From contig MU270044.1 of assembly GCA_021432635.1 (NCBI GenBank), positions 136,898 through 178,687 of the forward strand: DNA of 41,790 bases. The letters run 5' to 3'. Of this stretch, positions 12,977 to 32,534 are shown in pieces (the stretch's first letter is position 1; the number at the start of each line of letters is the position of its first letter). A program made the translations under genes and the position numbers. Below the pieces are notes generated by a model, which ran no database searches, was not told the DNA's origin, and saw nothing but the letters and a program-made list of their open reading frames with translations. This DNA comes from Thozetella sp. PMI_491 (lineage: Eukaryota; Ascomycota; Sordariomycetes; Chaetosphaeriales; Chaetosphaeriaceae).

Positions 12977-14483
12977 GGCGTGTGCGTCCGTAACCATTGA
13001 TTAGCGATGGTCAGATTGGAAGCAGGGATGCTCCGTAGCTGCTGGGGGATGGTTGATTTATGCTAAAACCCGTGGCTATTATTTACCAACACATGTTCCC
13101 CGTAAGGTGCGGCCGCCAAATGCAGCGGCCCTTGTTCGTGCCCATGCATATGCAATGCACGCACAACGTCCCGGAACAGGACATATTCAGCTGTCACGAA
13201 AATTAGAGGAGAGTCTTGGTCGCCTATACGTGGTCAATCAATGTTAGGGTCCTCCACTTAACGGGCCTTGGCAAGTTGAATTGGATTCGCTCACGAGGGC
13301 ACGGTCTACCATGGGCCAGTAAAGTCTGCGTCGTTATCGCACATTGGGTTGCATTCGGCGGGTGCTGATTCAGCGATCATCTCCCGATACTTCTGGGGTA
13401 CAATACTACCGTATCCTAGAAAAAAGCCTATATTCAGAGACGGCCGTGCTGACACGCAACCCGCAACTAGCCCCAATTGTCCGCGTAGCCGTGCTATTCG
13501 TCGGTAGGGGCTTCAGTTGCCCATTATGTCTTTGCGCCGTGTTAGCGAGCAAGATTTGCTTACTATTCCGTGGCCTCAATGGGACGTATGGCGCCTAGAT
13601 GTTCGTCACCGATACAACTCATAACTATATATGTATGCCAAGGGACGGTTGGGCACCTACCATCTTCCCCCATTAGGAAAATTATCCTATTATACCAGGA
13701 CACATAGCGGACTCGTTCGGTCAGGGATAGCAGATATCTCACGCGACTTGTAGATCCTCCGTTGATAGGGTCTAAATAACGGAACCATATTTTGGCAGGG
13801 ATCTTGCTCTCTGCATTGTCGTCGATTTACCCCTACCAAAACGGCTGTAGGTCGGGGTGTTCCCACGAGCAAGACATCACAATAAAAAGCCTGCTCGAAC
13901 ATAATCATAACAAAAGAAACCTATCAATCACAAACATGGGAAGGGCGAAGAGACAAGGGTTCCAACAACCCGGTGAATTTAAGATGAATGCCAATTCTAG
14001 TAAAATAGAGAGACAGGGGAAGAAAGTAACGTGCTCTCGGACCTTGACCTCTACGGTAGTAGTCAAGTATGTCCACCCCGGTAGACTAGCGGGAGAGGTA
14101 CAGAATATAGGCTGACAAAATGGAGGGGGAGCTAGTGGCGAGTGTGGCCTCAATGCTGCCCCACGCTGACACAGCGTCGCTCGCCACGCCATAACAAGAC
14201 CATACTCCATAGTATCATCTAGCAGGTCCAGGTCCATATGTCCCGTACTGAACCGACCTCAATCAGCCGGACCAGTGATCCCTCGAGATATCCATGCTTT
14301 GTCTGGGGAAGGTGGATATGAATAATATCACAATAAGCGTCACAATAAGGGTTAGGGTTGGCTACGGCCGAATCAGCTAGGCCAATTGGTTTCGGGGCTA
14401 GGTGATGTTGTCACTCCAATTCCAAAAATGGATAGTTCATTTAAAAAGCTAAAATTACATGTCAGTAATAAATACCTACGATT
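12977..14483. other. Intergenic region, no gene seen
   Basis: Only short frames with no family similarity occur. A short stretch at 14347-14361 reads AAGGGTTAGGGTTGG, which contains one telomere-like TTAGGG unit plus part of another. That is too little to call an interstitial telomeric repeat. Confidence 0.5.
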
Positions 14484-14564
14484 GGCCAGATGGCGGAGTG
14501 GTTAACGCGACAGACTAGAAATCTGTTTCCTTCGGGAGCGCAGGTTCAAATCCTGCTCTGGTCG
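14484..14564 (+). tRNA. tRNA-Ser (anticodon AGA)
   Basis: An 81-base cloverleaf. The acceptor stem GGCCAGA pairs with TCTGGTC (one G-U pair) and the discriminator is G. The D stem is GCG/CGC. The anticodon stem ACAGA/TCTGT closes loop CTAGAAA with AGA at positions 34-36. A long variable arm (TTCCTTCGGGAGC) is typical of class II serine tRNAs, and the T arm is GCAGG-TTCAAAT-CCTGC. There is no intron. Confidence 0.95.
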
Positions 14565-14570
14565 AGTTTC

Positions 14571-15318: not shown

Positions 15319-15672
15319 CTAGTTCAGGTCAACAGCACGCTTCTCCTCTGGCGAGCGCTTGTCCCAGCGCTTCTCTTCCTCTGGCGAGCGCTTGTCCCAG
15401 CGCTTCTCTTCCTCCGGCCAGCGCTTATCCCAGCGCTTCTCTTCCTCCGGCCAGCGCTTATCCCAACGCTTCTCCTCCTCCGGCCAGCGCTTATCCCAGC
15501 GCTTCTCCTCCTCCGGCCAGCGCTTATCCCAGCGCCTCTCTTCCTCTGGCCAACGCTTATCCCAGCGTTTCTCCTCTTCCGGCCAGCGCTTATCCCAGCG
15601 TTTGTCAGCCGATGGCCAAGCAACGGCAGAACTAGCGAGAACAGCCAGGATGACTCCAGCGGCGAATTTCAT
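15319..15672 (-). CDS. Secreted Kex2-processed repeat precursor 1 (candidate RiPP precursor)
   Basis: A 117-residue protein. Residues 1-18 form a clean signal peptide (MKF start, hydrophobic core, AVA cleavage site). Residues 19-25 are WPSADKR. Eight tandem units of WDKRWPEEEKR then fill residues 26-112; unit 2 ends ERR, units 7 and 8 have Ser for the second Trp, and unit 8 lacks one Glu. The tail is AVDLN. Every unit carries two dibasic Kex2 sites (KR or RR), so the protein should be cut in the Golgi into many short Trp- and Glu-rich peptides. This is the layout of dikaritin-type RiPP precursors and other Kex2-processed repeat proteins. The gene is divergent from a UstYa gene (start 16660), which supports a RiPP role. 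The usual Tyr-containing core is absent. Alternatives are a secreted signalling or pheromone-like peptide. Confidence 0.85.
   Translation of the reverse strand: MKFAAGVILAVLASSAVAWPSADKRWDKRWPEEEKRWDKRWPEEERRWDKRWPEEEKRWDKRWPEEEKRWDKRWPEEEKRWDKRWPEEEKRWDKRSPEEEKRWDKRSPEEKRAVDLN
15337..15597 (-). repeat. Eight tandem 33-base coding repeats
   Basis: Seven 33-base units and one 30-base unit encode the WDKRWPEEEKR repeats. The units are almost identical at the nucleotide level, and the changes are mostly synonymous or Trp to Ser in the last two units. Because the unit length is a multiple of three, several other frames also stay open here; these are artefacts. Confidence 0.95.
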
Positions 15673-16659
15673 AATGTAATATATCGCTAACGCGGATGAA
15701 TTTAACGAGGTTTGGTTATGTAAAAAATGGAGTTGAAGTGTAGCCTCAGGTAGCGTTTTCTTGAATCTGCGGTGACAAGATAAAATTCATATTCCTTTCA
15801 GGAAAGTTGGAGGGTATTTATACACTTCTTCTCGGATGGTCTAGACCGTCGGACAAAGGCTTCGTGGAGTAGATGATCGTCTAATTACCGATTAGGTGAC
15901 CTTGGACTACTACATCAGGAGATATGAAATCAGCCAGTCGGGTGTCTTCGGACGTAGTTGTCGGGCATGCACTAGTCCGAGTGCTGACGACTTTGGTGCC
16001 AAGATGCGAGCTTCCGAACAACAAACATACAATTTATGGAAATTAATCTTCAACTGGTCATAAATTTCGTAGCATTTTGGAGCTGTTTGTCTGTGTACCG
16101 AAGCTAGACATTGCGGGGGCGGATACTCGGCACATCGTCGAGTTGTCTGACGTTATCGACGCCCAAGTCGGGCCTGCTTATATTGAACGGCGACTCGCCA
16201 TCCCAGTAGACTTTGAATATCCCCTATCGAACGACCAACCGGCTCGATGCCGGCGCCTCCCCTGTCGTGTATCACTTAGAAATGTTAGCTACATAAGGAA
16301 AGAATTACAGACATGTTGATGTTGTGCGAGGTTCTTGACCAGCATGAAACATCTCGAATCGGCAGGTAGTCAGATAATTTTTGGGGCGTTCAAGTGTAGG
16401 CGGCGCGTGGATCTATCTACTACCCTAAATGTTGCGAGAATGGAGCGAGACATTATCCCTTCCTAAAACTTCAGAGGGAGCTCATGCCCCGCCCCCCAAG
16501 AAAACACGCGCCTTTCCGTATCACTTTTGCTTTCTATATTATCCCTCTTCATATTCTCAACAGTCTCACCTTGTGTGTCCTTTAACCAAACCTGTGTGTT
16601 CTGTCTTGGCCCAGATCTTCCTGCGATTCGGATGACCTACACTTAGAGCCACTGTTTCA
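15673..16659. promoter_or_regulatory. Divergent promoter between precursor 1 and UstYa-A
   Basis: About one kilobase separates the two divergent starts. It holds a TATA-like element for precursor 1 and a pyrimidine-rich tract (about 16520-16600) before the UstYa-A ATG. No gene was recognised. Shared control of precursor and modifying enzyme is plausible. Confidence 0.4.
15815..15822 (-). promoter_or_regulatory. TATA-like element of precursor 1
   Basis: TATAAATA on the minus strand lies about 145 bases before the ATG at 15672. Confidence 0.45.
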
Positions 16660-17796
16660 ATGTTTTCTAAGGACAAACGCCGCGTGGCAATGGTGTCTCC
16701 GAGAGATACCGTGTATGAGGAGCTTCTCCAAGCCGAAGAACCTTTGCCAGGACATTTTGATCGAAAAACTCTCCACTTCGGGCTCTCGCCATTCGAGAAT
16801 ATCCGCGCGTTGGTTTGGATCACCATCAACCTGGTAATACTCTTGGTACTTGGATTTGCAGTGTTAGTCTTGTACCATTATCCTCGTGACTTGTCTATGA
16901 AGCTATATTGTAAGTCCAAGATACGATATTTAGTTGGTGACTAGGCACTCATTAACATATACTGTAGCGCCTGCCCAAGACGTCGTCAAGTATTTTGTTA
17001 CGCAACCGCATGACTCGGTTCATAATAAGAATATTTATATGAACCTCCTGCCGGATGGGTCGCGGAATCCTGACGTCGATGAACGTTGGGAAGCCCTCTA
17101 CGCCCGTAAGATACTTTACCTGCACCAAATCTGCGTGCACATGTTGTCTGACTCGCAGTTCTGAAATAGCGTACATGGCCGCGGCCATCACGCCGGAAGA
17201 GGCGAACCGCCTCCCATCTAAGACAATGCGCCTCCCTGGTAGCGACAATGCCTACGTTATTGAACTTGAGATCTTCCATCAGCTCCATTGCCTCGACTCC
17301 ATTCGACGCTCGCTATTCCCTGCGACCGGCCATAGTGGCGGCGTGAAAAGTCACTTCGGGGACGGAGACAAAGATGCACATTTGCCGAGCCATCTTGGTA
17401 TGTTCTACTTTTGCCTTGTATCCATATACCTAACGTACATTTACCATCTCATCTTCCTTCGACATTGATTCACCTATCTCGTCCTTCCTCATTCTCTCGC
17501 GATCCAAGCCGGTGGGATGTGATACCACGGCGACCACATGGCAATTGGAGCTAACCCAAGTGCTCTGATCAGATCATTGCCTTGATTGGATCCGCCAAGG
17601 TCTTATGTGCTGGGTGGACGTCACCCCAGTCACTTGGGAGTTCGATCCGGAGCTGGGATATCCGGAGACACAGATCCCTCACCAACGTACGTGCCGTAAT
17701 TGGGATAGGGTGACAGCCTGGGCTGAGACCCGAAGTGTCCCTGAGCCACCGTTTAAGAAGCTTGGGCCGTTCACACCGCCCACAGAGGACTACTGA
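16660..17796 (+). CDS. UstYa-like (DUF3328) oxidase A
   Basis: Exons 16660-16909, 16968-17105, 17170-17397 and 17573-17796 give 279 residues. A cytoplasmic N-terminus is followed by one membrane helix (about residues 49-72, VWITINLVILLVLGF core). The lumenal domain carries the two family motifs HQLHC (166-170) and HLDHC (204-208); the second HxxHC is assembled across the exon 3/4 junction. CLDWIRQ, VTPVTWEF and the RTCRNWD segment complete the family pattern. UstYa and related DUF3328 proteins act in fungal peptide pathways in oxidative macrocyclisation, chlorination or other C-H functionalisation, probably with a metal held by the HxxHC motifs. Divergence from precursor 1 makes that peptide the first candidate substrate. 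Confidence 0.9.
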
Positions 17797-18677
17797 TCCT
17801 TGATCACCTGGAACATGCGAAATGGATAATGCGAGATAGTATTACGCCTAGTCATTTAGCTACCTAATCTTCTTTGGAGGTTGACTCTTAGTTTATGGTA
17901 AATCACGAGGTGTTGTCTACCTAGCTATTACGATACCGAATGGTTCTTTTAATAGCAGATACAAGAGTGTAACTTTGAACTGGTAGGCCGACTCTAAGAC
18001 GGTTCGGTCAGATGAGGAAATACATAACTGAGGTTATATTGATCCGCACTCCTAGGACGAGATTGCCGACGAGACCGGCGGAACTTTACTCAACTACTAA
18101 ACCTACCGACACTATCGTTAACAAGGTAACTTCATGGGGCGGCATCTATTAGAGCAGCGTCGTTGGTATTACTAGCTTTATGCCTTTAAAGACTTTCTAG
18201 GTTAATCTCTCGTTCGACAGTTATTACCATTTTGATCGCCGGGGGTATATAGATGTTACTTCTCCCGTGTTGATTGTAGATGCTCCTGAGATCGTATCAA
18301 AAGTCATCCGGACCTCAACTGACCATCAGTTGTCAAGAGTGTTTTGTGCGCGGTCCAACCCCAAAACCCTCGAGTCTCACCCCACGTCAGCAGCTGCCAT
18401 GGCTGTGGTTCGGTTGGAGAGCGGGGCGAATGAGACGCGACGACCCCGCGCACCTCGAACTTCAGCGCAGACTATCGGGACAGTTTGCAGTAGAGCCGCG
18501 TAGGTGTGAAAATAGTATCTATAAAAGATAAAACAGCATGTGAAAGAGGAATCTAGGCGGTCGGAGCCGTGATCGTCTTGTGTTCACCCCCAAGGGTTGT
18601 GGGTCTCTTGCAGGGCAATAAACGCTGTGACAGCACGCCCATCACATTTCGGACCGCCCCACGATACCCCGGTACAC
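17797..18677. other. Intergenic region between UstYa-A and the DUF218 gene
   Basis: Two convergent genes end on either side. An 80-codon plus-strand open frame near 18280 has no recognisable features. Nothing else was seen. Confidence 0.45.
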
Positions 18678-19711
18678 CTACGACCGCACTCTCTCCTCTT
18701 TGCCTTTCTCTACAAGGGCGTCCAGTTGCTTCCAGGCAGCCTCCGCCACGCTGGGCACGTCAACGTGCGCTATAAACCCCTTGCCGTTTGGCCCATAGCC
18801 ATCCTCGTCGTCTCTTAGCCTTGGGATCTCGCCCATAAGCAAATCCACAAATCGGGACATGCTCCAGAGTGATGCGCCTTGAGAGTCGAAGCTCGCGAAT
18901 TCGAGCGACGACCATATGTCGGTAGCCTCGGGAGATTCTCCTCGAACCGCTACCCTTGGGACAAAGGTCGGCCAGCTGACGAAGCGGGGGGGCGAGGCGT
19001 GGTCCTCGTACACTTTTTCGAACGACGCCACAGTCCGCCTGCACATGGTGGGATCTTGAACCACGATGACGGATCGTGGGGAGTGAATCCCGAACGTCTC
19101 TAGTACCTTTCGTGACTCGGATGCATTGGCTCCGCAATTGGTCGATCGATCCTCTACCACGATCCTCAGGCCGCTCTGGCTCTGAGGCTCTTGCGGCGGG
19201 GCGTCTAGCACCTTGAGTCCGAACCACTGTTCTGCTATCTTCTGAATCACCCGAGATTCTGGCAGCCCCTGGGCGGCATCGGCGATTTCCTTGTATCGCG
19301 GATGCTTTGCGACTGCCTCGTAGAGGAAGGAAGTAGAGTGCCCAACGCCGCCGCAGAGTACCAGCACAAGATTCCTCTCTCGTCTACCGGAGCCCGGCAT
19401 GTTAGCGAGGTTTCCTCGGTAAGGTATTCAACTTACAGGGAAATTTTGGCCGGGTCAGAGGACCCATCGGGTCCCGTAGTATCACTAAGGGCCGTAAAGA
19501 CCGTATCGGCGATGCTGAGGACTGCCGAGGCGCAAAACACAATGACATCGGTGGGTGTCGAGGCACCTTCGCTGACTTCCGGAGGCGGCAGCCCGTCTAG
19601 GAACCGATCGACATCTGAAGCGATGCGGATCTGCTCGTACGCCAAGAACGCAGACAAGTAATTGATAGCGTCGGCAGCTTCCTCCATGGCATCATTGGAC
19701 GGCGGGGTCAT
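18678..19711 (-). CDS. DUF218 (YdcF/SanA-like) domain protein
   Basis: Exons 19711-19437 and 19383-18678 (donor GTAAGT, branch GCTAAC, acceptor GGTAG) give 326 residues. The DUF218 core starts with TDVIVFCASAVLSIADTVF. After the junction come LVLVLCGGVGHST and VEDRSTNCGANA, where the acidic and Asn residues are typical of the family, followed by RSVIVVQDPTMCRRT and a WPTFVP segment. The length is slightly above bacterial YdcF proteins of about 266 residues. YdcF binds S-adenosylmethionine in vitro and other members affect envelope properties; the fungal role is unknown. It has no membrane helix. It lies inside the UstYa region but nothing links it biochemically. Confidence 0.82.
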
Positions 19712-20044
19712 CCTGATGTGTAGGCACGGCGGCTGGCCTGGGAGTGCTCGTCTGTTGGGGCTTCTGGCCGTGTTCTTTTCAGCTTGTCTCAGGGGCCCCG
19801 CATAGCCGAAAGATGTGGCGACCAAACTCAACTACACGTGATACAAGTTCGTTTAGCGTGAAGGATTGTGTCGCACGATTGCTGACACTAGCAAGACACC
19901 ATGGGTTGGGCGGCAGTGTAATCCCGATAGTCAAAAAGGGAATGCGGAGAAAAATAATGGTGTAGTTATTGGATAGCGTAGCTCTCGTTAAGGGACACCA
20001 GAAAAAGTCCAAGTCATTCCCCTCTCTGGGAACAGGCTAGACGC
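19712..20044. other. Gap upstream of the DUF218 gene
   Basis: Nothing recognised. It probably includes the DUF218 promoter. Confidence 0.4.
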
Positions 20045-20242
20045 TCAGTCACCTTTGAGAATAGAATCAGCGATCTTCTCGGCCAGCGCATACAGGGTCG
20101 CCTGTGGATGCCCCGGCAAGGAAAATAGTTGTATCGAGGCATCAACGACTCGCAAGCCATTCACGCCGAAGACCTTCGCCATCCAGTCCACCACAGCCCC
20201 GACGCTCGCATTAGTGCCCATCGCATTAGTTGAACATGCGTG
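20045..20242 (-). pseudogene. GMC oxidoreductase C-terminal remnant
   Basis: The minus strand encodes 65 residues beginning HACSTNAMGT, then a VVDWMAKVFGVNGLRVVDAS segment and GHPQATLYALAEKIAD before a stop at 20045. These are the signature end of the GMC flavin oxidoreductase family, including the catalytic His of the HPQ/HxN region and the last helix. An intron acceptor-like TTTAG sits just before the His codon, so this would be the last exon. The FAD-binding domain, 400 or more residues, should lie upstream (above 20242 on the minus strand), but that space is occupied by an unrelated plus-strand gene fragment. It is therefore a truncated relic. Confidence 0.8.
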
Positions 20243-20271
20243 CTAAATCTGAATGATATTATTCCTGATGA

Positions 20272-20919
20272 AGCTTAATATCTCTCCGTCTGTATGCACC
20301 GGTATTTATCGGTCGTGAACGCCCTCTCCAATTGCCGTTCGACACTCTCCCTACTCCCGAAGCCAACATAGCAGACGCCATGGACGACCAGAGATTTCTT
20401 AAGATTCGCGGAGTACGGGATTTGCAGGCACGGGAGCGCAAATCGTACCACGTGGGTAAGTACGGCATGACCACGGGCCTCACCTTCGGCATCGTCGGTG
20501 AAATTGAAGCGATTCTCCGCGAGCCATGCGCTGGGGCCGGAGAGGTTATCTCTTGGGCGTTGCTCATCGTGTCGGCTAGCCGCAAGACATATCCCGGCCA
20601 GCCCTTTTCTGCGCATGGAGACTCTGGCTCAGGCATTTTCGACCTCTCTGGGAATCTTGTTGGCGTTTTGGACGCTGGACAAGAATCGCACGAGGTTCGC
20701 AGGTGTGGCAAAGCATACACAGAGGAGGAACCGAAATTGCCACCCATAGGCACTCCAGTGACTGCAGCGCCCACAGATTTCACAGGATTTGACGAGTCGT
20801 ATGGACTTTCGAGGCAAGAGACTGAGAAACCCGCTGTTGACGTGACCTTCGCGACGCCCATGGAATGGCTGCTGGAAGACGTCGAGGACTTCACCGGCTT
20901 GAAACCCGAGATAATCTAA
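20272..20919 (+). pseudogene. C-terminal part of a trypsin-like serine peptidase
   Basis: The frame is open from just after a stop at 20269-20271 to 20919, 215 residues. The first in-frame ATG is at 20380. The segment HGDSGSGIFDLSGNLVGVLDAG contains the GDSG nucleophile motif of chymotrypsin-fold peptidases and their fungal relatives, followed by the expected hydrophobic strand. The catalytic His and Asp regions, normally some 100-150 residues earlier, are missing, and the upstream DNA belongs to the GMC remnant on the other strand. It is likely a 5'-truncated copy. A short expressed protein from the ATG at 20380 cannot be excluded. Confidence 0.6.
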
Positions 20920-20950
20920 TTTGACGGAAAGTAGTGGCGCGAGCGGATGG

Positions 20951-21080
20951 ACGAGATCGATGCCTGCCCTTTACGGTGGCAAGCCCCAAGGGGTGGCATG
21001 AGGTGGTGTTGTGTGCCCAGGAAAAGAGAGGAGAGTTCGATGCCCTGCCCACAGTGGTGGTAAGCCCAAGGGGGTGGCAT
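20951..21080. repeat. Imperfect 50-base direct duplication
   Basis: A block at 20951-21000 (ATCGATGCCTGCCC ... GGGGTGGCAT) recurs at 21031-21080 (TTCGATGCCCTGCCC ... GGGGGTGGCAT), spaced 80 bases apart, with scattered mismatches. Confidence 0.7.
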
Positions 21081-22823
21081 TAAATATTTGACTTCGGAAT
21101 TGCCTTGCTTGGGATTTGGAATCATCTTTGGATGAAGAAAGAGGTGGGAGCTCGTCCTTGAGACTGGCCTTGACGTGGCGATGGGCGTTAGTAGTCGCTC
21201 GAGCGGTGAAACCAACGAGTCTCAGTCGTGGATATAGTATAAGCAAACAAATTTGGCTGTTGCAGACGTTTCCTCTTTCTCTGTGGTCTGTACACGGCGG
21301 TGCCTTATCCTGTGCTAGGGTTCAACGCATCATGGCATGTAAACTGATCGGGGCATCTGAACTTTTGGAAAATTTTAAACATTAACCGGGATTGTATCAA
21401 GAGTAGGCGAAAGTCTCCATATTTTCGGTAAATTCGCATGGGGTGCCTTGATGTACGTGCTACATACAAATGCCCATAACGTATAGCCTAGGTCGTCGGC
21501 ATCGTCGATACGGAGGCAAAGCATCCGAAGGCCACGTGCAGACCACTTCTCCTCCCAATGGTTATCACTGTTCCCACCTATTTCTGTTTCTTGGAAAGAC
21601 CTGGGCGATGATATCGAGTCTTGTTAGACTGCCATATCTCCATGACCTCAATATCTCAGACGACCCGACTTGTAAGATACTACATTGATAAATCCTACTA
21701 GGTCGCGTATTTTATTGGCTCATTGAATCGTATTCGGTTGAAATCGAATGCATCGGTCGCTAATTAACTCTCTCACAAAGGGCATGTCGTTGATACTTGT
21801 ATTTGGCCAATCGCGGAACTCGGATCCGCCATCACTCTATGCAGCGTTCCCGCCATCCGTCCCATTGTCTCATATGCCTTCCCATCTCTAGGATCGAAGA
21901 ACAGGAGTCAAAGGACACCCAGGGTCAATCAAGGATCAGCACAGACCGCGAGTGGCTCCGGCCACAGCAAGCTCAACGACTCTGCGCAGCGTAGCAACGA
22001 ATCCGGTCCGAGTTGGTTCCCGTACACTGAGCTAGATGATATTGACAAGGAATCTCAGAAGACGGCACGTGATGATGGCCTGTCGAGCAGAGACCGCATT
22101 ATTTGGCCAGAAGGTTCTCAACTTCCGATTGCTCATCTGTACATGGGCGGAAACGCCGCATAGTGTTCTAGCAAGACAGACAATAACATTCATTTACTCT
22201 ACTGCAAGATTTTGCGCCACTTGTCACCTTTCCTAATCTGTTTGGCGTTGATAACATGTTATCGGTATGCCAAAGGAAAACTTTGAAGCAAGGAAATAAT
22301 GCTAGTCGAGTAAGGTCGCTAAGCTTACAGGGCTCTGGAAGCTGACACACCAATCCCCAGCAGTGCTAATTGTCACGACCACATTGGAAGCATTTACGCA
22401 AAAGGATTCTGCGCCTAGACCTCCAAAGGTAAGAATCCAGAAATCTATCACACTTCCTGGCGTAGAAGCGGTCATGGGCTCGGCTTTTGTGGAGTCCTAC
22501 ACACATGACCTGATTCAGGCCGCCGCTTCTATCCGTTACGGAGACTCACTTCTGTTAGCCTACAGTCACGAGTCCTACGTAATCACAGTGTGTCGCCACC
22601 GTAGTCGTTTATTCTTCTATAAGCGGCGAGGTCTGCAGACTAGCCATGAGGCTCACATCATCATATTTTATTGTTACGCAGTCGGATATTCTTCCCTAAA
22701 AGGTAAAGCCGAACAATAAGAGGCTTAGCCATAGCTGTACCATGAGAAGCCGAGCGTCTATACTCCTATAATCGGCTAATTACACCAATAGCGAGCAACT
22801 TACGAGGGGATAATGCTCTCGTG

Positions 22824-22829
22824 TATAAA
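22824..22829 (+). promoter_or_regulatory. TATA box of the NTF2-like gene
   Basis: TATAAA about 120 bases before the ATG at 22948. Confidence 0.45.
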
Positions 22830-22947
22830 GGGGGAGATCAAGGACAACTAACAGCGAGTTATTTTCTAGTCATTCGCAATTTGCAGATCTACAAAAGTAA
22901 ACCCACATCAACAGTCTCCGTTTCACATAAAGTATATACCTGCCATA

Positions 22948-23500
22948 ATGTCGGCATCGAACAAGGAGCAACGGCATGAGACAGCGGTCGACCCAATCCT
23001 CTTCCCACCGATCAAAGGGCCAACGGAAGCTCTGAGGGCATTTGTTGATGACGTTTTCAACACTGTACTTATCCAGCAAAGCACCGTCGTGTTAAACGCC
23101 GCCATCAAGGAGTATATGAGCCCTCTTTACACTGAAACGTATGGTATTCTTTTGATCGTACATTTTAATTCTAAGAGGCATCGTTACTGACTGATTCCCT
23201 GCCCGCAGAGCAAACGGCGAATTCGTAACACACAACGAATGGCTAAAGATTATTATGCTGCAGCGGAAGACGCTTTCCAACCTTTATGTGATCGAAAAGA
23301 AGATCATTGTAGTACCAGCCGATGAGAAGGGCCTCACGGGACAAGTGGTTCACATTGCAAAGATTTCTGGGGACGAGGAGGGAGTAGGAAAATTCACGGG
23401 CGACTGCGTGGGCAACTATCGAGTTGGCCTTAAAAAGAATGGGAAGATGCAAATTGAGGATGCTAATGGGATTGCAGCCATTTATCTTGTTAAAGACTAA
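22948..23500 (+). CDS. Putative NTF2/SnoaL-like small protein
   Basis: Exons 22948-23138 and 23209-23500 (donor GTATGG, acceptor CCCGCAG) give 160 residues. No signal peptide or membrane helix is seen. The pattern is a helical N-terminus (ALRAFVDDVFNTVL), then YMSPLYTE, a THNEWLKIIM helix and alternating strands with VVHIAKISG and GKMQIEDANGIAAIYLV. This order resembles the cone-shaped NTF2/SnoaL fold, in which small fungal proteins act as cyclases or dehydratases in secondary metabolism. No catalytic residues can be assigned. It is convergent with UstYa-B, so a tailoring role in a peptide pathway is possible but unproven. Confidence 0.5.
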
Positions 23501-23772
23501 AGGGCCTTCGTACGCAGCAAAGATGGCGGGACAGGAGGAAGGGATTTATATATTTGAATGTGATTTCTTGTTGTCCTAATCGCGGCGCGAATACAGCTGT
23601 GGTGTAACCCTTAACCCACTTAGCCTTATTTGACCCGAAGCTAGAAGTACGAAGCCAGCGGCATGAAACATAAGTCACCACTACGGGGTAAGTACCTTTT
23701 CATATGGTATATTTTGCTAAGTAAATGTTTCTAACCACCCCCTACTTCCTACTCAGGTATCAATATCCGCTT

Positions 23773-24793
23773 TCAAAACACAGATGCTGGCATCTTAATC
23801 GCGCCTGGAGGGGCTCGCAGCCCAAAGAATTCCGCATCTGTATGCTGAGTCGGAGGGATCCATTCATTCATGTCATGGTCATAGTTGAGACACTTGCGGC
23901 TGACGTTGAAGTCAACCACCGGAAAATCTTGGCCTTCGACCCAGGAGGCGAGATAGACATCCACACTAGCCTTGCACTGGAGCGATTGCACCAGCGAGTG
24001 CAGACAGTGTAGGAAATGTTGCTCGACGGGCCATTCCATCGCACCGTCGAAGTAGGCATCCGGATACATGGCCTTGCGTACCATATTTAGGCAGTGAAGG
24101 TCATGTTGGGCTTGGGTCATGGCGAAATATCTCTCTTCGCCATGTTCTAATACAAGTCAGCATGGACAGTAGGGTATCCCAGCCTGTGCAACTCACGCCA
24201 CTTCTCTGGTGCAGCCACAGCTATTTCTGGATCTTTCCCAAGCCGTCGAACTTCATCTTCTGTGATGAGGAATATTCGACCGTTTTTATGAATATATTCC
24301 CATGCTGCGTCGACATCACTTGAGGGGCTTTGCCTATATACCGATGGCGGCGTATTGTGGGAATTTGCGAAGGCGCTCTTCAGCCATCGCTCTTCGAAAT
24401 GCATTTCTCGGCGTTCAAGCAGTGGTGCTGTAGTTTACGTTAGTCTCTAGTCCGGATGTCTTCTTATATCTCTTCCTCACACCACGCATTTGTCGCCACG
24501 ACGAGCTCATGATCTGAAGGCCGCCGTTGGATCCCGCACCACGAGGTCCAGATGAAGAATAGGCAGGTTGGGATGACAAGAATCTGGCAGAGGAATACCA
24601 AACATGTCCCTTTTGGGATAGGAAGGATATTATCTACACGGCTCTCTCCTTCCTAGCCGTTGTCAGTATAGCCTGGTTGCCCACCGTAGGAAAAGCCGAG
24701 GACTGCTGGTGCCATATCACTTACTTCCAAGGTTCCATTGCCTTCTTCAATACCGATATCTCGGTGTTTCTTCATTTCGAAAAATCTTGCCAT
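23773..24793 (-). CDS. UstYa-like (DUF3328) oxidase B
   Basis: Exons, read downwards: 24793-24725, 24652-24481, 24427-24197, 24146-23773. Total 846 bases, 281 residues. The ATG at 24793 begins MARFFEMKKH; the frame is open upstream, so an earlier start is possible. A membrane helix spans about residues 38-60 (CLVFLCQILVIPTCLFFIW). DHELVVATNAW is followed by SPLLERREMHFEERW, and ITEDEVRRLGKDPE precedes the HxxHC motifs HDLHC (172-176) and HFLHC (201-205). The C-terminus RAPPGAIKMPASVF strongly resembles that of UstYa-C, the neighbouring gene. B and C form a subtype distinct from A and D. The likely role is metal-dependent oxidation of a peptide in the secretory lumen. Confidence 0.9.
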
Positions 24794-25601
24794 ATAGCCT
24801 TGATTTGGAGAGCGTCGAAGGCTTCCTGTCGTCCAAGGGTAGACCGGCAATAGAGCATCTAAAGCCTTTGCAGGTGCCGCATCACTATGGAGTAAACGAT
24901 AGAACTGTTTGCTAGAATCTTGTTTGACTCGAGCTCGGCTTACTACTGCGTGTTGACGTGAGAATTTCAGCGACCTCGGTGCAAGCCAGCGTACAATCCC
25001 ACCTTCCGCTACTGGATCCAAGGATCTTGTACGCAGATAGTTACCTACTTAATCCAGAGCAGTGCGTGGCAAATCGGCAAGTAATTTCCATTTCGATCGA
25101 AGGCATACTGAGTACATCTCTAGAATATTCCCGCGGGAATGCTGGCCGCACCTATGGTGGTACTCGGATATTTGACGCAGCTTACCGAAGGATCTAGGCC
25201 GTGCTTCGCGTTGGCAGCCGCCACCTGCCTAACACGCGATAGCCAGAATCAAGCATAAAACAATTACAAATGGCTGTGCCACCTTTGAGCGCTTTCCGCC
25301 ATTTCTCACCGTTGCATTCTCTCTAGCGACCTGGTGATTCTCGTTTATAGTGGGTGGGGGACACAAGCGCCCAGGGGCATGCAGAGAGCTAGAAGCTCCA
25401 CAACAACTCATCGATCCTATGGTCCTCATATTATACATACACTCCTAGCGTACCCCTTTCATATCTTCACGCCCTGGCTCCTCAGTAGTTGTAGAGGAGA
25501 GAAGTACTTGGCCTTGTGATACGCTCCTCCGCCTCTTAGCTGTCCTTTGATCATATGCTGCAGTAGCAGAATATCGCTTCACCTAAAACAAAACCGTGGA
25601 C
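24794..25601. promoter_or_regulatory. Divergent promoter between UstYa-B and UstYa-C
   Basis: About 800 bases separate two divergent UstYa starts. No coding gene was recognised. Head-to-head placement of two similar paralogues suggests a tail-out duplication with shared control. Confidence 0.4.
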
Positions 25602-26680
25602 ATGAGCTCCCGAGGGGACTACGCGCCGCTTGCAAAGGGTGATCTCGCACTCACAAGCCATGAAGATGAGCGCACTAACAGCACAGATTCGGTAGGCCTA
25701 GCTCTACGTATATTTCTGCCTATCGAAATAGTCAATGCTGAAATTCACAATCTCTTAGACTCAATTCGAATACCCAGGCAGCCGTACTCGCCCTTCTTGG
25801 ATACCCTCTCCATGGCTTCTTCAATCCATGAGATGGCTCGCCATTGTGGACGCAGCCCTTATTATCGCAACCTTTTTCATTTACACCTACTCGATCTTTG
25901 GCGTGATGGGATTGACCGATCATGAACTAATTGTGGCTACCAACTCGTACTGTGAGTGAGAGGCCCCGTGCCCCCCCACGAGAGTTTCGTATCTCATAAC
26001 TGCTAGCGCCTCTTCTCAGTCGTACCAAAATTGAAATGCGGGACGAGATGATCAAAACTGCCTTGATTAATAGGCATAACGAGGGCGGGCCTTCCCTTCT
26101 GCGTGAACCTCCATCCCCCGAGGTCGACGAAGCATGGCGCCGCTTACACAAAGGAGACCGACTGTATGTAATCAGCGAAGAGGAGGTACGCAAAATGGGA
26201 AAGGATCCCAGTGTTGTAATCAAGGCACCTCTCGAGTGGGGTAGGTTTTCTTTCATCGAGCATCCTTCTCCATGAGATTTGGAAAGAAATCGGCTAACAA
26301 GAATACACCTAGGCTACGGTGACGGTCAATATTTAGCTGTCAATCAGGGACAGCACGATATCCACTGCCTCAATAACATAAGAATGTGGATATATGCGGA
26401 ACATTATTATGGGAACAGGACGAAATACTACGAGATCCATGCACAGCATTGCCTTCACACGCTGCTGCAAACATTTCAATGCAAATATTCTACCGACGTA
26501 TATACGGCCTTTTGGGTGGAAGGATCTCTGCCGCCGGTGGTGGACTTTAATCTGAAGCGAAAGTGTCAGAACTACGACAATATTTTGCATTGGAACCCTG
26601 AAAAGCCGTATACGGAGGACCAATTTGCGGCCCTGAGACCACCGGCGGGACAAAAGAGAATTCCTGCAAATGTGTACTAA
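25602..26680 (+). CDS. UstYa-like (DUF3328) oxidase C
   Basis: Exons 25602-25691, 25759-25951, 26007-26240 and 26313-26680 give 885 bases and 294 residues. A hydrophilic N-terminus is followed by a membrane helix (about residues 58-78, AIVDAALIIATFFIYTYSIF). LTDHELIVATNSYSPLLSR is nearly the same as in UstYa-B. The HxxHC motifs are HDIHC (187-191) and HAQHC (215-219), and each spans the position expected for the family. The C-terminus is RPPAGQKRIPANVY. Four-exon structure and intron phases match UstYa-B, so the two are paralogues. An oxidative peptide-tailoring function is known for the family; the substrate is inferred to be a precursor of this locus. Confidence 0.92.
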
Positions 26681-26946
26681 GCCTGAACGAATCAAGTGAC
26701 AGGTTAAAGGAGATCACATATAATGCGAAGACCGCTAAATGCTTCTATGAGTTAGGAGAGAAATAGAATAGAGGTTTCTATATTAAATTGGGTAGGTGCT
26801 TTCACACAACTCGTGTAGCACATTTTTGATAATACGAACCACGTAAAGAGCCATCCAACTTTTATGTAGTTATCATTAGAATGTAATTTCCTATCTCTTT
26901 GCCTAACAATAAGCCCGGAGGCATCTATTAAGAAGCTTTCTCTGAC

Positions 26947-28114
26947 TTAGTGGGAATGCGCGTCGACGAACTGCGGAGAGGCTTCGATACTATCAGCTTT
27001 TCTAGCCTGCCATTCGGCCCAAAAAGAGCGGCCCTCAGAAGTTTCATTCCACCCAACCTGCCACTGTTTAAAGTACTTGTTGCCCGGAAATTGTGGCCAA
27101 AATTCGGAGAGATCCTCCCATGCGGATTGGTCAAACGGCGGGTTTTCAAGCAGCTCTCTCCTCTCTTCGGGGGTTAATACTTGGCGAAGACCGACGGCCT
27201 CATGCTCACGAGCCCACTCTACAATCTTTGTGAAATTGCGGCAGGTGTGCGTTGTTTCGAGATGAGGTCCAAGAACTTCTCCCACAGGAACGTTGAAACG
27301 CCAGGAAATGGGCGTGACGTCGGCGTTGCACATGATGGTTCCCCGAAGGATATCAATACAGTGTTCTATCGATGAATTAAGTTAGTATCTCCCAGAGAAT
27401 GCGTAGATTCAGAGTGTATTCATTACCCCAATGCCGCCACTGCATGTCGTTCCGGTTAATAGACCCATCTTTATTGTGTGGCCATTTCTTAGGCCAGCGC
27501 TCCGGATAAAAGGCCTTGCGGATGTCGTTCAGGCAGTGAAGCTGGTGAAATACCTCGAGCTGGATGATGTAATTGTCTGTACCTGGCTGGTTGATAGTAG
27601 GGTAAGCTAGCCGGTTGGCCTCTTCCTCGGTGATAAAGCTGTCACCGACTAACAACTGAATGAGCTAATGTAACACTTACTGCCGTATCTGGGGTAGCGA
27701 TTCGTTACTCACATTGGTATAGATCTTCCCACAGCTGATCGGTTTCATTTGTTGGGAACCCCATATAAGGGGTTTTCGTCATGAAGGCGGTAGTAATGTT
27801 GGTCGTATAATACTCGACTAAGTGGCTCGCAGGTGCTGGGTCGCGTTTAGCTTATGCGTGTAAGAACGACGGAATACCTCGAGGTGGAACTTACAATAGA
27901 CCCCAAGCGACAGATCTGTCGGTCTGCGAGTCGTAACGACTATGAGCGCCAGTGCAAAGACGACATTCGCGCTCAAGGACCCTGCCAACAGCCAATTGGC
28001 CCATCCACCCCGCCGACGGCTCTTGACAACGGGATGTCCAGTTAACAAGGCATCTTGAGAATCTCCATCTTCTGAGGATCTAGTGCTCTCGTCTTTGGCC
28101 CAAGAGGCATCCAT
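26947..28114 (-). CDS. UstYa-like (DUF3328) oxidase D
   Basis: Exons, read downwards: 28114-27895, 27835-27713, 27648-27427, 27365-26947. Total 984 bases, 327 residues from MDASWAKDES. Several in-frame ATGs lie upstream, up to 28435, but encode no conserved sequence. A membrane helix is at about residues 39-61 (ANWLLAGSLSANVVFALALIVV). LSLGVYSPA and a TNETDQLWEDLYQFGDSFI segment lead to HQLHC (149-153) and HWEHC (187-191), the latter formed across the exon 3/4 junction. CIDILRGTIMC, DVTPISWRF and THTCRNF match UstYa-A, so A and D are one subtype. The C-terminal tail is about 50 residues longer than in A. It is convergent with UstYa-C. Confidence 0.9.
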
Positions 28115-29448
28115 CCTCGGTTCATTGGGCCTTGCAAAGAAGCTTGTCTTCCGCGCGGAGCTTTGGAAAGATACGAATCGATCGGGCCCCGTGGAAAATG
28201 AGTCGACGCACACTGTTTTCAGGGAAGCTAGAAAATCGGGCAGGGTATAGGGCACAGGACACATGTGTCTATCTGCTTGCTCCAGGTCTCCAAAGGTAAG
28301 GCACGGAATAGGAAGAGGGGCGGCATCTGTCAGGGGTGTGGTTCTAGGGTATATCATATAATTTGGTACTATCATGTAGCAACGCATGACACAATAACCC
28401 CTACGCCGTATGCACAGTAACATTGTACATTCCACAAAATCCTTTAAGGCACCCTGCGAGCCGTAGACTAATCCTATGTAGGAAATCCGACTGCACTTAA
28501 ACGAATAGCATTATCTTCGCTAGTGATGATTCATTAAGACGCCGAAAGTAGTCTGAGTGCACTGATTGGCTTGTTCTCCGAGTTCTTGCGGAATCCTAAA
28601 CTACACTGAAGTTTTCCAATGCTTAAGACGAGACCCCACTTATTGTCGCCATTCCTTTGTCAACCTTTGGTCCAAAGACTCAAAGTAACGGTTCCTACAC
28701 GGTGTATTCGCTAGTGCAGTTATATCCCACTGACAATCCAGAGACATACACGCATTCCTGGTACCTGTTTATAACCTCCGCTCTCGCCGGACCATCATAT
28801 TTGTTCTGTGGTGCAAAGTCCGAGTGGATGCTACTCCTCGGACTGTAAGCTGATAAATCCCCCTTCCCGCACCCTCCAAAAGAAAAATACTACCGGCTGT
28901 GCCTCCTCGTCAAAAGTACTACCCCACGTTGGTTTATTCGAAACTCTTATTCCTGAAGTAGGATTAGGAGCTCTCGTTACATCATGTACTTGGCCGCCAT
29001 GACCCCCTGCGGGAGCCTAGGAGCATTGGTTCTCGAGAGTCGCACATCGGTAACCGAAAGAAGCCTTGCGGCCTTCCCTAAGATGGCAGGTGCCGCCATT
29101 TATCACGAAGGCAGAGTGTCAAGTGTTGTACAGTATTGTAAACTATTGATCTATTGCATCGGAATTCTCGCGGATTTATGACCAGGACTTCGGGGATCGA
29201 GGCTCCGAGAACCCGCCGCAAACACGCTTTTCGGTTGCTCCAAAAGGAAAAGAAAATCAAGGAAGAAGTTGAAAGGCCAGGCAGAGAACGATCAGATCAA
29301 CAGAAGACCCCTGGCTCAGAATCACACCGCCCTATTCTAGACTCACATATAAGTGGTCTAATGTTCGATCCTAAGTCACGGGCTAGGAAGGTCTTCAACT
29401 AACCTAGCTGCACACCTATTCTGCTTTTACCTACCAACCGGAACAATA
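28115..29448. other. Intergenic region between UstYa-D and precursor 2
   Basis: No recognised gene. Both flanking genes start from it, so it is a divergent promoter region of 1.3 kb. Short frames near 28657 and 29154 show no family features and lack ATG starts. Confidence 0.45.
29348..29353 (+). promoter_or_regulatory. TATA-like element of precursor 2
   Basis: TATAAG about 100 bases before the ATG at 29449. Confidence 0.4.
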
Positions 29449-29955
29449 ATGAAGTTTCTAACCGTCTGCGCCGCCCTGGTTGCCGTGGCCGCTGCTGCTC
29501 CGTACGTTTTCATGCATTTCTTCCTACCAATCTCTAAAGAAGCAACTAACATTATCAGCAGTACGCAGCCCGGTCCAAGCAATCAGGCCTTGGAAGGGAA
29601 GAGAAACCTCGATGCTGACGAGATTATTCTATACACTTGTGCAGGCATCGACAGTGCTGATGAGAAGATGAAGAAGCGTTGCGCCGCTGCTTGGATTGAG
29701 AAGCAGAAGCGGGACGAGAAACGCAACCTCGATGCTGACGAGATTATCCTATACACCTGCGCCGGCATCGACAGTGCTGACGAAAAGATGAAGAAGCGTT
29801 GCGCCGCTGCTTGGATTGAGAAGCAGAAGCGGGACGAGAAACGCAACCTCGATGCCGACGAGATTATCCTGTACACCTGCGCCGGCATTGACCCTGCCAC
29901 TGCCGATGAGAAGATTAAGAAGCGCTGCGCCGCTGCTTGGATTGAGAAGAAGTGA
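29449..29955 (+). CDS. Secreted Kex2-processed repeat precursor 2 (candidate RiPP or disulfide peptide precursor)
   Basis: Exons 29449-29501 and 29562-29955 (donor GTACGT, branch ACTAAC, acceptor CAGCAG) give 148 residues; without splicing a spurious insert would separate signal and repeats. A signal peptide (MKFLTVCAALVAVAAAA) is followed by a short spacer ending GKR. Three tandem units start NLDADEIILYTCAGID, pass a KKR site, continue CAAAWIE and end at KR sites; the last unit ends in EKK and stop. Kex2 cutting would yield a chain of about 22 residues with one Cys and a chain of about 9 residues with one Cys from each unit. It is adjacent to the UstYa genes and divergent from UstYa-D. Tyr and Trp beside Cys are plausible crosslinking sites. 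Confidence 0.88.
   Translation: MKFLTVCAALVAVAAAAPYVFMHFFLPISKEATNIISSTQPGPSNQALEGKRNLDADEIILYTCAGIDSADEKMKKRCAAAWIEKQKRDEKRNLDADEIILYTCAGIDSADEKMKKRCAAAWIEKQKRDEKRNLDADEIILYTCAGIDPATADEKIKKRCAAAWIEKK
29605..29952 (+). repeat. Three tandem 120/120/108-base coding repeats
   Basis: Units are 29605-29724, 29725-29844 and 29845-29952. The first two differ by a handful of synonymous bases. Unit 3 carries a two-residue insertion (PAT for S at the GIDSADE position) and ends early at the stop codon. Confidence 0.95.
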
Positions 29956-30594
29956 AGAAAAATTACGGCAAGACCGACAGGCCCTATCAACTATTTTAGA
30001 TTCGCGATATTTCCGTGTTTTCGGAGCGGCTTGTCTCGGACTGTAAATAGGTAGTAACTAGCTACTAGGTAGCCGCCCACCTGATTCCACTCGCCCGGTT
30101 CGAACAGCCCAAGCACAAAAAGGAGTTGGCTGCTGGGTCGAGAATGTGGTGTGACATATTCCCTTTGCCATGTCAGACCCAATTTATATTTTATGGAGTC
30201 AAAACTCATTTTCATCATGCGGGTCAAAGAACTCAGTCCGTAGAGGACTCGATTGCAGATATGCGGGAAAGCTGAGAGAGCGGCCTCAGCTAGAACGCCA
30301 CAGACTCTGTGACCCAATAGGTGGATCGAATCTCGCATATTCTGCCGATTCTTACCGCCTAGGGAGGCTTCCGATTCCGTTGTCAACCTGTTGATGATTC
30401 CGTCCTGGGCATTCTCTGGTCGTTGTTGGGTATTGACAAGTCCTAAGCAGCGCATGGTTCCGACCTGGCGAAACTGCAGAGAAAGTTGAGTGAATTGCCA
30501 CCACTGAGTGCTACGCGTGCCACTGGGCCCGTCTTCGCCATTGCCGCACTGTGGGCCCGCCCCGTCTCCGTCTCTTTGTCCCCCACTTGACGCT
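29956..30594. other. Intergenic region between precursor 2 and the HET gene
   Basis: Nothing recognised beyond the likely 3' end of precursor 2 and a C-rich tract upstream of the HET start. Confidence 0.45.
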
Positions 30595-32534
30595 ATGCGA
30601 CTCTTGCAGCAGAAGGGCGATAACGACTTTGGCCTGACCGACGACTTGGCCCGCCCTAATATCCCCTTCTATGCTATTCTCTCGCATACTTGGGGCACGG
30701 GATCCGAGGAAGTCACCTTCCAAGACATAACAAACGGCACCGGGAAGCACAAGGCTGGCTACGATAAGCTTCGCTTCTGTGCCGAGCAAGCGCGCCGTGA
30801 TGGCCTGATATACTTTTGGATCGATACTTGCTGCATCGACAAGACAAATAGTGCCGAGCTCTCTGAGGCAATCAATTCTATGTTCCGCTGGTACCGAGAG
30901 GCCTTACGATGTTATGTGTACCTGCCCGACGTCTCGGCGGATGGATACGGATACGGTCAGGCGTCTAGCCGCCCCTGGGAGCCCGCTTTCCGTGTAAGTA
31001 GGTGGTTCACCAGAGGCTGGACCCTTCAGGAGCTCCTGGCGCCCGCATCTGTTCAATTTTTTGCACGGGAAGGTATATTTCTCGGCGATAAGACGTCTTT
31101 ACAGCGTCAAATTCACGAGACAACCGGCGTCGCCATCTCGGCGCTCTGCGGAGATCCGCTCAGTCGCTTCAGCGTTGAGGAACGCTTTCAGTGGGCCGAG
31201 TCCCGCCAAACGAGCCGAGAGGAGGACTCAGCATACTGTCTGTTGGGGATCTTCGGCGTCTTTATTCCAGCCATATACGGCGAGGGAAAGACGCACGCCC
31301 TCCGACGGCTCAGGAAAGAGATTAAAGATGCTGTACACAGCGAAGATCAGCCTATCCATCGGCAGAGTAAGTCGCTGTTCCTAGTTTGTGCATCTTCACG
31401 CTGCTAACCCCAGTCAAAAAGCAACCGGTTCAAAGGACCAACAAGATAGCCAGATCATTAGTTCACAATACGTCTTGAATTCAACAATAGCAAGTCAGCC
31501 TACCCGTGAGCAAGGTATGTCGCCATCTGTATTTCGTACATCTCGGCGCCGCTAACCCACATCGTTAAGAAATTGCCTCTCCACTGGATAAGCAAGGCAG
31601 CCAAGTCAATACCTCACCCCGTGTCTTCAATACGACAGCAGCAAAATGTCTACATACTCTCACAGGACACAAGGATGAAATTTATTCAGTAGCCTTCTCG
31701 CCCGATTCGCGACTCCTTGCATCAGGATCAGGCGACAGGTGTATCAAACTTTGGAATCCAGCAACGGGGAAATACTTAGGTACAATTAGAGGCCATCGTA
31801 ACCGGATTTCCTCGATAGCCTTCTCGCCCGATTCACAGCTCATCGCATCAGCATCATACGATAAGAGTGTCAAACTCTGGAGTCCAGAAACAGGAGAGTG
31901 CCTACATACACTTCAAGGCCATGATAGCTATGTTTGCTCAGTGGTTTTCTCGCCCGATTCAAAACTGCTTGCATCGGCATTAGGCGATAAGACCATCAAG
32001 CTCTGGGACTTAGCAACAAAGGAGTGCATACATACGTTTAGAGGCCATGAAGGATATGTATCTGCAGCTGCCTTCTCATCTGATTCAAAACTCCTTGCAT
32101 CAGGATCAGGCGACAAATCTATCAAACTCTGGGATCCAGTAACAAAAATGTATCTCGGTACTCTGAATGGCCATGAGGGATATGTTTCTTCTGTGGCCTT
32201 CTCGCTTGATTCGCGGTTCCTTGCATCCGGATCAGGCGACAAGTCTGTCAAACTCTGGAATCTAGCAACATCACAGTGCGTATACACCGGTGGAGGTCAT
32301 CGTATGTATATTTCTTCTGTGGCCTTTTTGTCTGATTCAAGACTGCTTGTATCGGCATCACGCGATATGTCTATCAAATTCTGGGATCCAACAGCAGGAG
32401 AGTGCCTACGTACACTTGAAGGCCATAAAGGTGGAGTTTGTTCGGTTGCTATCTCACCCGATGCAACGCTCCTCGCCTCAGCATCACATGATATGTCTGT
32501 TAAACTTTGGGGTCAGAAAGCGGATAGACAGTAG
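30595..32534 (+). CDS. HET-domain protein fused to a seven-repeat WD40 propeller
   Basis: Exons 30595-31366, 31422-31514 and 31570-32534 give 609 residues. The ATG at 30595 gives the canonical MRLL...F.LT start. HET-domain blocks are PFYAILSHTWG, FWIDTCCIDK with MFRWYREA, and FTRGWTLQELLAP (residues about 20-150), followed by the AYCLLGIFGV segment. A linker of about 85 residues, part of it Ser/Gln-rich, follows. Seven WD40 units of exactly 42 residues then end near the C-terminus. HET domains trigger heterokaryon-incompatibility cell death, and WD40 domains recognise partners. In HNWD proteins a NACHT ATPase lies between the two, but none is present here, with no P-loop in the linker. It may be a NACHT-less derivative or another HET architecture. 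Confidence 0.9.
31635..32516 (+). repeat. Seven tandem 126-base WD40-coding repeats
   Basis: Period is exactly 126 bases (unit starts 31635, 31761 and every 126 thereafter). The core text TTCTCGCCCGATTC...CTTGCATC recurs with few changes. Units end in KLW followed by the ATGEC-like start of the next. High internal identity with variation at a few positions resembles the hypervariable WD40 repeats of fungal HNWD genes. Confidence 0.92.

Follow-up and report, generated by a model that had tools for sequence, protein, structure and literature searches.

The stretch of DNA analysed here, called the window below, comprises 41,790 nucleotides (positions 136898-178687 of contig C30) of the 72.3 Mb genome of Thozetella sp. 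PMI_491, a fungus of the Chaetosphaeriales, Sordariomycetes. It contains a putative locus for ribosomally synthesized and post-translationally modified peptides (RiPPs), in which two repeat-containing precursor genes, pre1 and pre2, bracket 14.6 kb with four intact genes for UstYa-type (DUF3328) oxidases, A to D, in between. In gene models assembled by hand from splice sites, these genes form three divergent pairs, pre1/A, B/C and D/pre2, with modelled start codons 987, 808 and 1334 bp apart, respectively. The models bear out the initial annotation, which had described two secreted-looking proteins with KR/RR repeats flanking four UstYa genes.

The first precursor gene, pre1 (window 15319..15672, minus strand), is a single exon for 117 amino acids with, as judged by reading, a hydrophobic start, and its repeat consists of 11-residue units, WDKRWPEEEKR. 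Cutting at the predicted Kex2 sites would yield the pieces WD (eight), WPEEE (six), SPEEE (one) and SPEE (one); tyrosine is absent from the protein. A tRNA-Ser (AGA) gene lies immediately to the left (14483-14565, plus strand). The second, pre2 (29449..29955, plus strand), encodes 148 amino acids in exons 29449-29501 and 29562-29955; the intron (29502-29561) is probable, and the unspliced frame is open too. Its product has a signal peptide, again judged by reading, and three units of about 40 residues, NLDADEIILYTCAGIDSADEKMKKRCAAAWIEKQKRDEKR, the last of them varied. Right after pre2 come a HET-domain frame and then a frame with seven WD40 repeats (30508-32531). We found that the variable sites among repeat copies fall largely at third codon positions: 7 of 9 in the seven full units of pre1 (its shortened last unit excluded), and 9 of 9 in the three copies of two blocks of the pre2 unit, where one of the nine alters a residue. 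Such a bias would be expected if selection acts on the peptides as read in these frames.

The two precursors are unrelated to each other, as had been proposed (shuffle p 0.16 in one direction, 0.07 in the other). In the protein database no homologue of the precursors came up, at E <= 0.01 among 6076 candidates or at E <= 1 among 101 candidates; for pre1 the rest of the genome has none at E <= 0.01 either. Relatives of pre2 are present as precursors on contigs C20 and C36 and as a broken copy on contig C101. Six strings taken from the repeats of pre1, pre2 and the C36 precursor had no occurrence in the main texts of the papers searched. The linear pieces would give [M+H]+ values of 320.124 (WD), 689.278 (WPEEE), 1019.498 (CAAAWIEKQ from pre2) and 2400.095 (the pre2 piece NLDADEIILYTCAGIDSADEKM), and 2264.047 for the C20 piece APNTDASEVVAYNAAGTVAGWAE. 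An identity as Kex2-processed repeat proteins (KEPs) of the alpha-pheromone type was considered and rejected: pre1 has no Pfam match, pre2 has five sub-cut-off matches to unrelated families, and a DUF3328 neighbour speaks against such an identity (PMC7329392).

The oxidase genes each have four exons. Oxidase A (16660..17796, plus strand; exons 16660-16909, 16968-17105, 17170-17397 and 17573-17796) carries the motifs HQLHC and HLDHC; oxidase B (23773..24793, minus strand; exons 24793-24725, 24652-24481, 24427-24197 and 24146-23773) carries HDLHC and HFLHC; oxidase C (25602..26680, plus strand; exons 25602-25691, 25759-25951, 26007-26240 and 26313-26680) carries HDIHC and HAQHC; and oxidase D (26947..28114, minus strand; exons 28114-27895, 27835-27713, 27648-27427 and 27365-26947) carries HQLHC and HWEHC. 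All four spliced frames are open and contain, besides their pair of HxxHC motifs, a single hydrophobic stretch (Kyte-Doolittle), and their matches to PF11807 have E-values of 9.4e-38 to 3.7e-54, in agreement with the earlier description of four complete DUF3328 genes, each with two such motifs and one helix. For B, the public model (P0001, 210 amino acids) is shorter and lacks the helix; our hand-built model adds the upstream exons. Within the locus, identity is 45% between B and C and 37% between A and D. A has a close relative at C71:27686-28211, with 74% and 84% identity in two pieces; stops lie within this six-frame match, reflecting perhaps an intron or decay. In the protein database, where 6 of 265 candidates reached E <= 1e-10, B is related to proteins of Coniochaeta sp. 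2T2.1 (74% across 76% of its length) and Trichoderma gracile (63% across 86%); a sequence search of the PDB yielded nothing related (best E 0.66).

This genome is very rich in UstYa genes. Scoring 150 of 203 candidates, which makes the count a lower bound, we obtained at least 149 matches, which reduce on merging to 122 groups spread over 91 places. A lone UstYa neighbour is therefore weak evidence, and linkage between an oxidase and a precursor needs other proof.

For B, C and D, a sister cluster bears on that linkage. Searches with B and D located the nearest kin of both together, at 383-388 kb of contig C20, in a 10 kb stretch (L040) where a repeat precursor (minus strand), D' (plus), C' (minus) and B' (plus) follow one another in an order that mirrors B(-) C(+) D(-) pre2(+). 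B' matches B at 72% and 77% in the two main exons and at 50% in the helix exon; C' matches C at 80% and 79%, with 46% in the helix exon; and D' matches D at 70% (residues 186-327), 69% (112-189), 67% (74-115) and 43% (3-76). Both HxxHC motifs are kept in all three sisters. Over 202, 223 and 139 codons, respectively, B, C and D share 75, 78 and 71% amino-acid identity with them. Nonsynonymous divergence (dN), from blocks above 60% identity, is 0.163 for B, 0.160 for C and 0.201 for D (last exon only); synonymous divergence (dS) is saturated in all three pairs and gives no estimate. Judging from these sequences, B, C and D are under purifying selection. In a tree of 25 UstYa rows, which carried long-branch warnings, C groups with C' (support 100/98) and D with D' (97/99). 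No counterpart of A, of pre1, of the gene at 22948-23500 or of the HET gene was seen in L040, and the DUF218 gene that lies between A and B has no match there at E <= 1; the shared block thus consists of four genes.

The C20 precursor (L040, 2319 down to 1746) contains six units, [SAE]PNTDASEVVAYNAAGTVAGWAEKR. Its first exon, signal-peptide-like, is 53 nt long, as is that of pre2, so the intron sits at the same place and in the same phase in the two genes; in L040 the intron is required, since the unspliced frame hits a stop. All 16 of the 16 variable sites among the six copies are at third positions and synonymous. To compare repeats, we aligned single doubled units with the KR sites held fixed and set the scores against shuffled units, in 18 tests. 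The pre2 and C20 repeats scored 73, compared with 20.3 on average after shuffling, and 0 of 2000 shuffles reached that score. In the alignment, NLDADEIILYTCAG...AAAWIEKQKR of pre2 stands opposite NTDASEVVAYNAAG...VAGWAEKR of C20; the residues kept include one Tyr and one Trp, and the second cysteine of pre2 comes, together with a Kex2 site, from an extra stretch. The C36 precursor likewise aligns with pre2 (72 against 21.9 shuffled, 0 of 2000), with both cysteines, the KR preceding the second one and the x3-Trp following it in register, and C36 and C20 give no alignment with each other (21 against 20.5, p 0.38). Low values were also obtained for pre1 with C36 (p 0.0025) and for pre2 with L026, another stretch near UstYa genes (p 0.0155); as 18 tests were run, we treat these two as unproven.

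The third relative of pre2, on C101, is a frame-broken copy with 76.7% DNA identity over 133 bases in a partly AT-rich neighbourhood. It adjoins a HET remnant (54% over 81 amino acids), the relic and its neighbour being located at L032 7492-7669 and 8271-8513, just as pre2 lies beside a HET gene, and none of the genome's UstYa matches (150 of 203 candidates scored) is on that contig. A precursor copy that has decayed where no oxidases accompany it fits a dependence of the one on the others, in a single case. The initial annotation had named a precursor homologue lying away from UstYa genes as an observation that would speak against the locus; it was encountered solely as this broken relic, in the same genome.

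Together, these results make it rather likely that two UstYa-type RiPP units lie side by side at this locus, pre1 with A, and pre2 with D, C and B. The C20 sister, with a pre2-like precursor, D', C' and B' and with neither A nor pre1, indicates that D, C and B go with pre2; this second unit is well supported by the sequence comparison. Assigning them to pre2 leaves A, divergent from pre1 at 987 bp, for pre1. This first unit, proposed from adjacency and divergent orientation, is only likely. The two units probably give two products. An UstYa-type RiPP locus had been proposed for this DNA, and gene anatomy, motifs and the collinear sister of the second unit agree with that proposal; the choice it left between two products and one merged locus now falls probably on two products, and its single four-oxidase locus gives way to units with one and three oxidases. 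The division of oxidases between peptides, which it had not decided, now places D, C and B with pre2 through the C20 sister and leaves A as the likely partner of pre1.

By comparison with ustiloxin, phomopsin and asperipin-2a (PMC6514808, PMC7329392), the precursors would enter the secretory pathway, where the single-pass oxidases would, in O2-dependent reactions, crosslink or hydroxylate side chains of the repeated cores. As in the DUF3328 enzyme CctR (PMC12435403), each oxidase would bind a pair of copper ions through its two HxxHC motifs, at a site predicted to face the lumen. Kex2 would cut after KR/RR, an exopeptidase would trim the ends and the peptides would be secreted. In the second unit, the Tyr and Trp kept between the pre2 and C20 repeats are the likeliest candidates for modification sites. 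Pre1 has no Tyr, so A would act on the WD or WPEEE cores, or else the pre1 peptide stays linear.

Several observations weigh against this reading. The tree of 25 rows does not resolve B with its kin, and BLAST does not connect the C20 precursor with pre2 (best E 4.1). The lack of Tyr sets pre1 apart from most repeats near DUF3328 genes: Tyr occurs in 65.6% of such repeats and in 38.2% of those elsewhere, and for Trp there is no comparable gap (20.5% near DUF3328 genes, 24.5% elsewhere), according to the text of a KEP survey (PMC7329392). No pre1-like sequence was found at E <= 10 on C71, which carries the relative of A. Tyrosinase (PF00264), searched exon by exon, had no match on C30 and 80 in the genome, and S41 peptidase had none on C30 and 7 in the genome. 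Finally, the control for the repeat finder described below was small, about 43.5 kb without UstYa genes (window flanks, L010, L016 and L032), and contained no frames.

The points on pre1 bear most directly on the possibility that it encodes an unmodified linear repeat peptide, a pheromone- or effector-like KEP that merely lies beside A and the second unit. Its very short cores without Tyr would suit such a peptide, as would the absence of a pre1-like sequence beside the relative of A on C71, and in the survey 6120 of 7878 KEPs lack a DUF3328 gene nearby (PMC7329392). Yet A is divergent from pre1 and 987 bp away, pheromone-type KEPs almost never have DUF3328 neighbours, and survey type P-3, of which 4 of 7 have DUF3328 genes, combines W with P as pre1 does (PMC7329392). 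We regard a linear pre1 peptide as a real but clearly less probable alternative to the pairing of pre1 with A.

A single merged cluster, in which four oxidases under one control serve both precursors and make one product family or cooperating peptides, seems to us unlikely. Six genes in three divergent pairs within 14.6 kb would be compatible with it, the phomopsin pathway has five DUF3328 proteins, and neighbouring precursors are reported for 767 KEPs without DUF3328 neighbours, pairs that the survey describes as unstudied (PMC7329392). The C20 sister is nevertheless a four-gene unit without A or pre1, and the roughly 6 kb between A and B holds four other elements. These are a gene for a DUF218 protein (18678-19831, minus strand; PF02698, E 3.2e-7); a C-terminal piece of a GMC oxidoreductase (20047-20270, minus strand; PF05199, E 6.5e-11) that looks like a remnant, as no upstream part was recognised; a 179-residue frame (20380-20919, plus strand) with a GDSGSG stretch, a sequence familiar from serine proteases, but without Pfam match; and a two-exon gene for 160 amino acids (22948-23500, plus strand), also without Pfam match. 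This last gene was rejected as a cluster member, having weak relatives only, on C43 and C9, far from UstYa matches. Among six short words counted in the three divergent intergenic stretches, TCCGAG was a candidate shared promoter motif (four occurrences between D and pre2, against 0.67 per kb in the window); the word was chosen afterwards and is not used here. The flanks of the locus contain MFS genes (11475-12164 and 34441-35811).

Repeat frames adjoin other UstYa genes of this genome as well. We applied a finder of repeated tetrapeptides adjoining KR/RR, excluding six duplicate loci, to 10 kb stretches that were the first in contig order and, except for one on C101, chosen blind to content. 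A KR-repeat frame was present in 5 of 17 UstYa places (L025, L026, L027, L030 and L035); C36 and C20 are two added places, fetched for cause, that stand outside this count. Besides the C20 precursor, the frames are at L025 1956-2315, L026 3170-3715, L027 6873-7625, L030 8992-9141, L035 5353-5736 and, on C36, L039 7323-7973, and the repeats among these six include WSDDFGAADGPASGYGQDKKR, AGIDYIKEGKR, DVSVNTPGDRTGIYWGKVDSEKR, YCGEDELKKR, SEAQSPDILYNNPAGWGKR and CPIPWTKNYGEYEKR. All seven, the C20 precursor included, are outside the window and 972-2125 bp away from the closest UstYa match. This closeness, like the frames at 5 of 17 places, speaks for the two-unit reading. L027, L035 and L039 have a signal-peptide-like start in the frame of the repeats; L025 (whose frame adjoins a run of N), L026 and L030 showed none. 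At six other places (C84, C18, C76, C10, C15 and C63), the 3.5 kb loci contained no KR-repeat frame. On C38 (411322-413274) and C43 (586578-591949), a tyrosinase match lies 0.9 kb and 4.6 kb, respectively, from UstYa matches; these are candidate ustiloxin-like sites.

That the UstYa genes of the window serve another pathway and lie near repeat proteins by accident is highly improbable: although at least 122 UstYa match groups occupy 91 places in the genome, DUF3328 enzymes are known from non-ribosomal pathways too (PMC12435403), and no KR-repeat frame was found in 12 of the 17 blind places or in the six further ones, the four-gene order and a related precursor are kept on two contigs despite saturated synonymous sites.

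Returning to the two-unit reading, the pre2 and C36 repeats share a further feature. A pair of cysteines is 13 residues apart in 6 of 6 units of C36 and in 2 of 3 units of pre2 (15 apart in the third), with a Kex2 site directly before the second Cys and an x3-Trp after it. The C20 repeat lacks both cysteines and the internal Kex2 site, as if the Cys pair and the internal cut had been gained or lost together. One speculative explanation, to which we give little credence, is that pre2 and the C36 precursor yield two-chain, cystine-linked RiPPs: a disulfide formed before Kex2 cutting would join the chain with Tyr (NLDADEIILYTCAGID...) and the chain with Trp (CAAAW...) in the fashion of insulin, and the three copper oxidases would modify both chains.

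Which UstYa protein goes with which precursor is, as a rule, a matter of guesswork. In this genome the four-gene unit with pre2 exists in two versions, in which the enzyme set is nearly constant and the core peptide has changed. With near-constant enzymes and a differing substrate, one can try to find the core residues on which the three oxidases depend, Tyr and Trp, both kept, being the first guess, and study core divergence while the enzymes stay under purifying selection. Adjoining precursors had not been studied, according to the KEP survey (PMC7329392); pre1 and pre2 are one such pair, with a history that is partly readable.

Among known systems, the closest in make-up to the units described here is the asperipin-2a cluster of Aspergillus flavus (aprA, aprY, aprT and aprR), which likewise combines a precursor of Kex2-site repeats with a DUF3328 oxidase and does not need a tyrosinase (PMC6514808, PMC7329392). 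It differs in having a single oxidase and the core FYYTGY, whereas our units have one and three oxidases and no neighbouring reductase was recognised. The ustiloxin B and phomopsin systems also have a signal peptide, repeated cores flanked by KR and two and five DUF3328 proteins, respectively (PMC7329392), but they need a tyrosinase, for which C30 has no match. Their cores are Y(A/V)I(G/P), compared with NLDADEIILYTCAGID.../CAAAW... and WD/WPEEE here. A phomopsin cluster may likewise have two precursors. As with the DUF3328 hydroxylase CctR of cyclochlorotine, a membrane-anchored homodimer with one N-terminal helix that requires O2 and electrons and coordinates two copper ions through its HxxHC(x)nHxxHC motif, oxidases A to D keep both HxxHC motifs; the substrate of CctR, unlike ours, is a non-ribosomal peptide, which it hydroxylates (PMC12435403). 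T. reesei cluster 55 was set aside as a parallel, being of a different kind, with no DUF3328 among its figure-legend genes (PMC7099791). Within the same genome, the C20 sister is alike in the order and orientations of precursor, D', C' and B' and unlike in its repeat, PNTDASEVVAYNAAGTVAGWAEKR, and in having no pre1 or A.

As to class, the narrow five-gene definition of dikaritins includes a tyrosinase, a methyltransferase and a transporter or peptidase (PMC12048977). With no match on C30 to tyrosinase or S41 peptidase, the units fall outside this narrow sense; no methyltransferase was present among 20 Pfam-scanned proteins (one from C36), in a scan not aimed at that family, and the flanking MFS genes would be the candidates for a transporter. 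In the wide sense, the DUF3328 protein is the class-defining enzyme (PMC12048977). All four oxidases are DUF3328 proteins with two HxxHC motifs near a precursor, and both precursors have repeated, Kex2-flanked cores and a signal peptide (by reading), and on this anatomy both units qualify as wide-sense dikaritins. Pre1 and pre2 also both fit the anatomy of KEPs near DUF3328 genes, of which the survey counts 1758 among 7878, with a mean of 3.09 such genes (PMC7329392); Thozetella is not named in its main text. With so many repeat precursors already near DUF3328 genes, the novelty claimed by the initial annotation is modest, and the locus is a new case within the known UstYa-type fungal RiPPs, the dikaritins in the wide sense.

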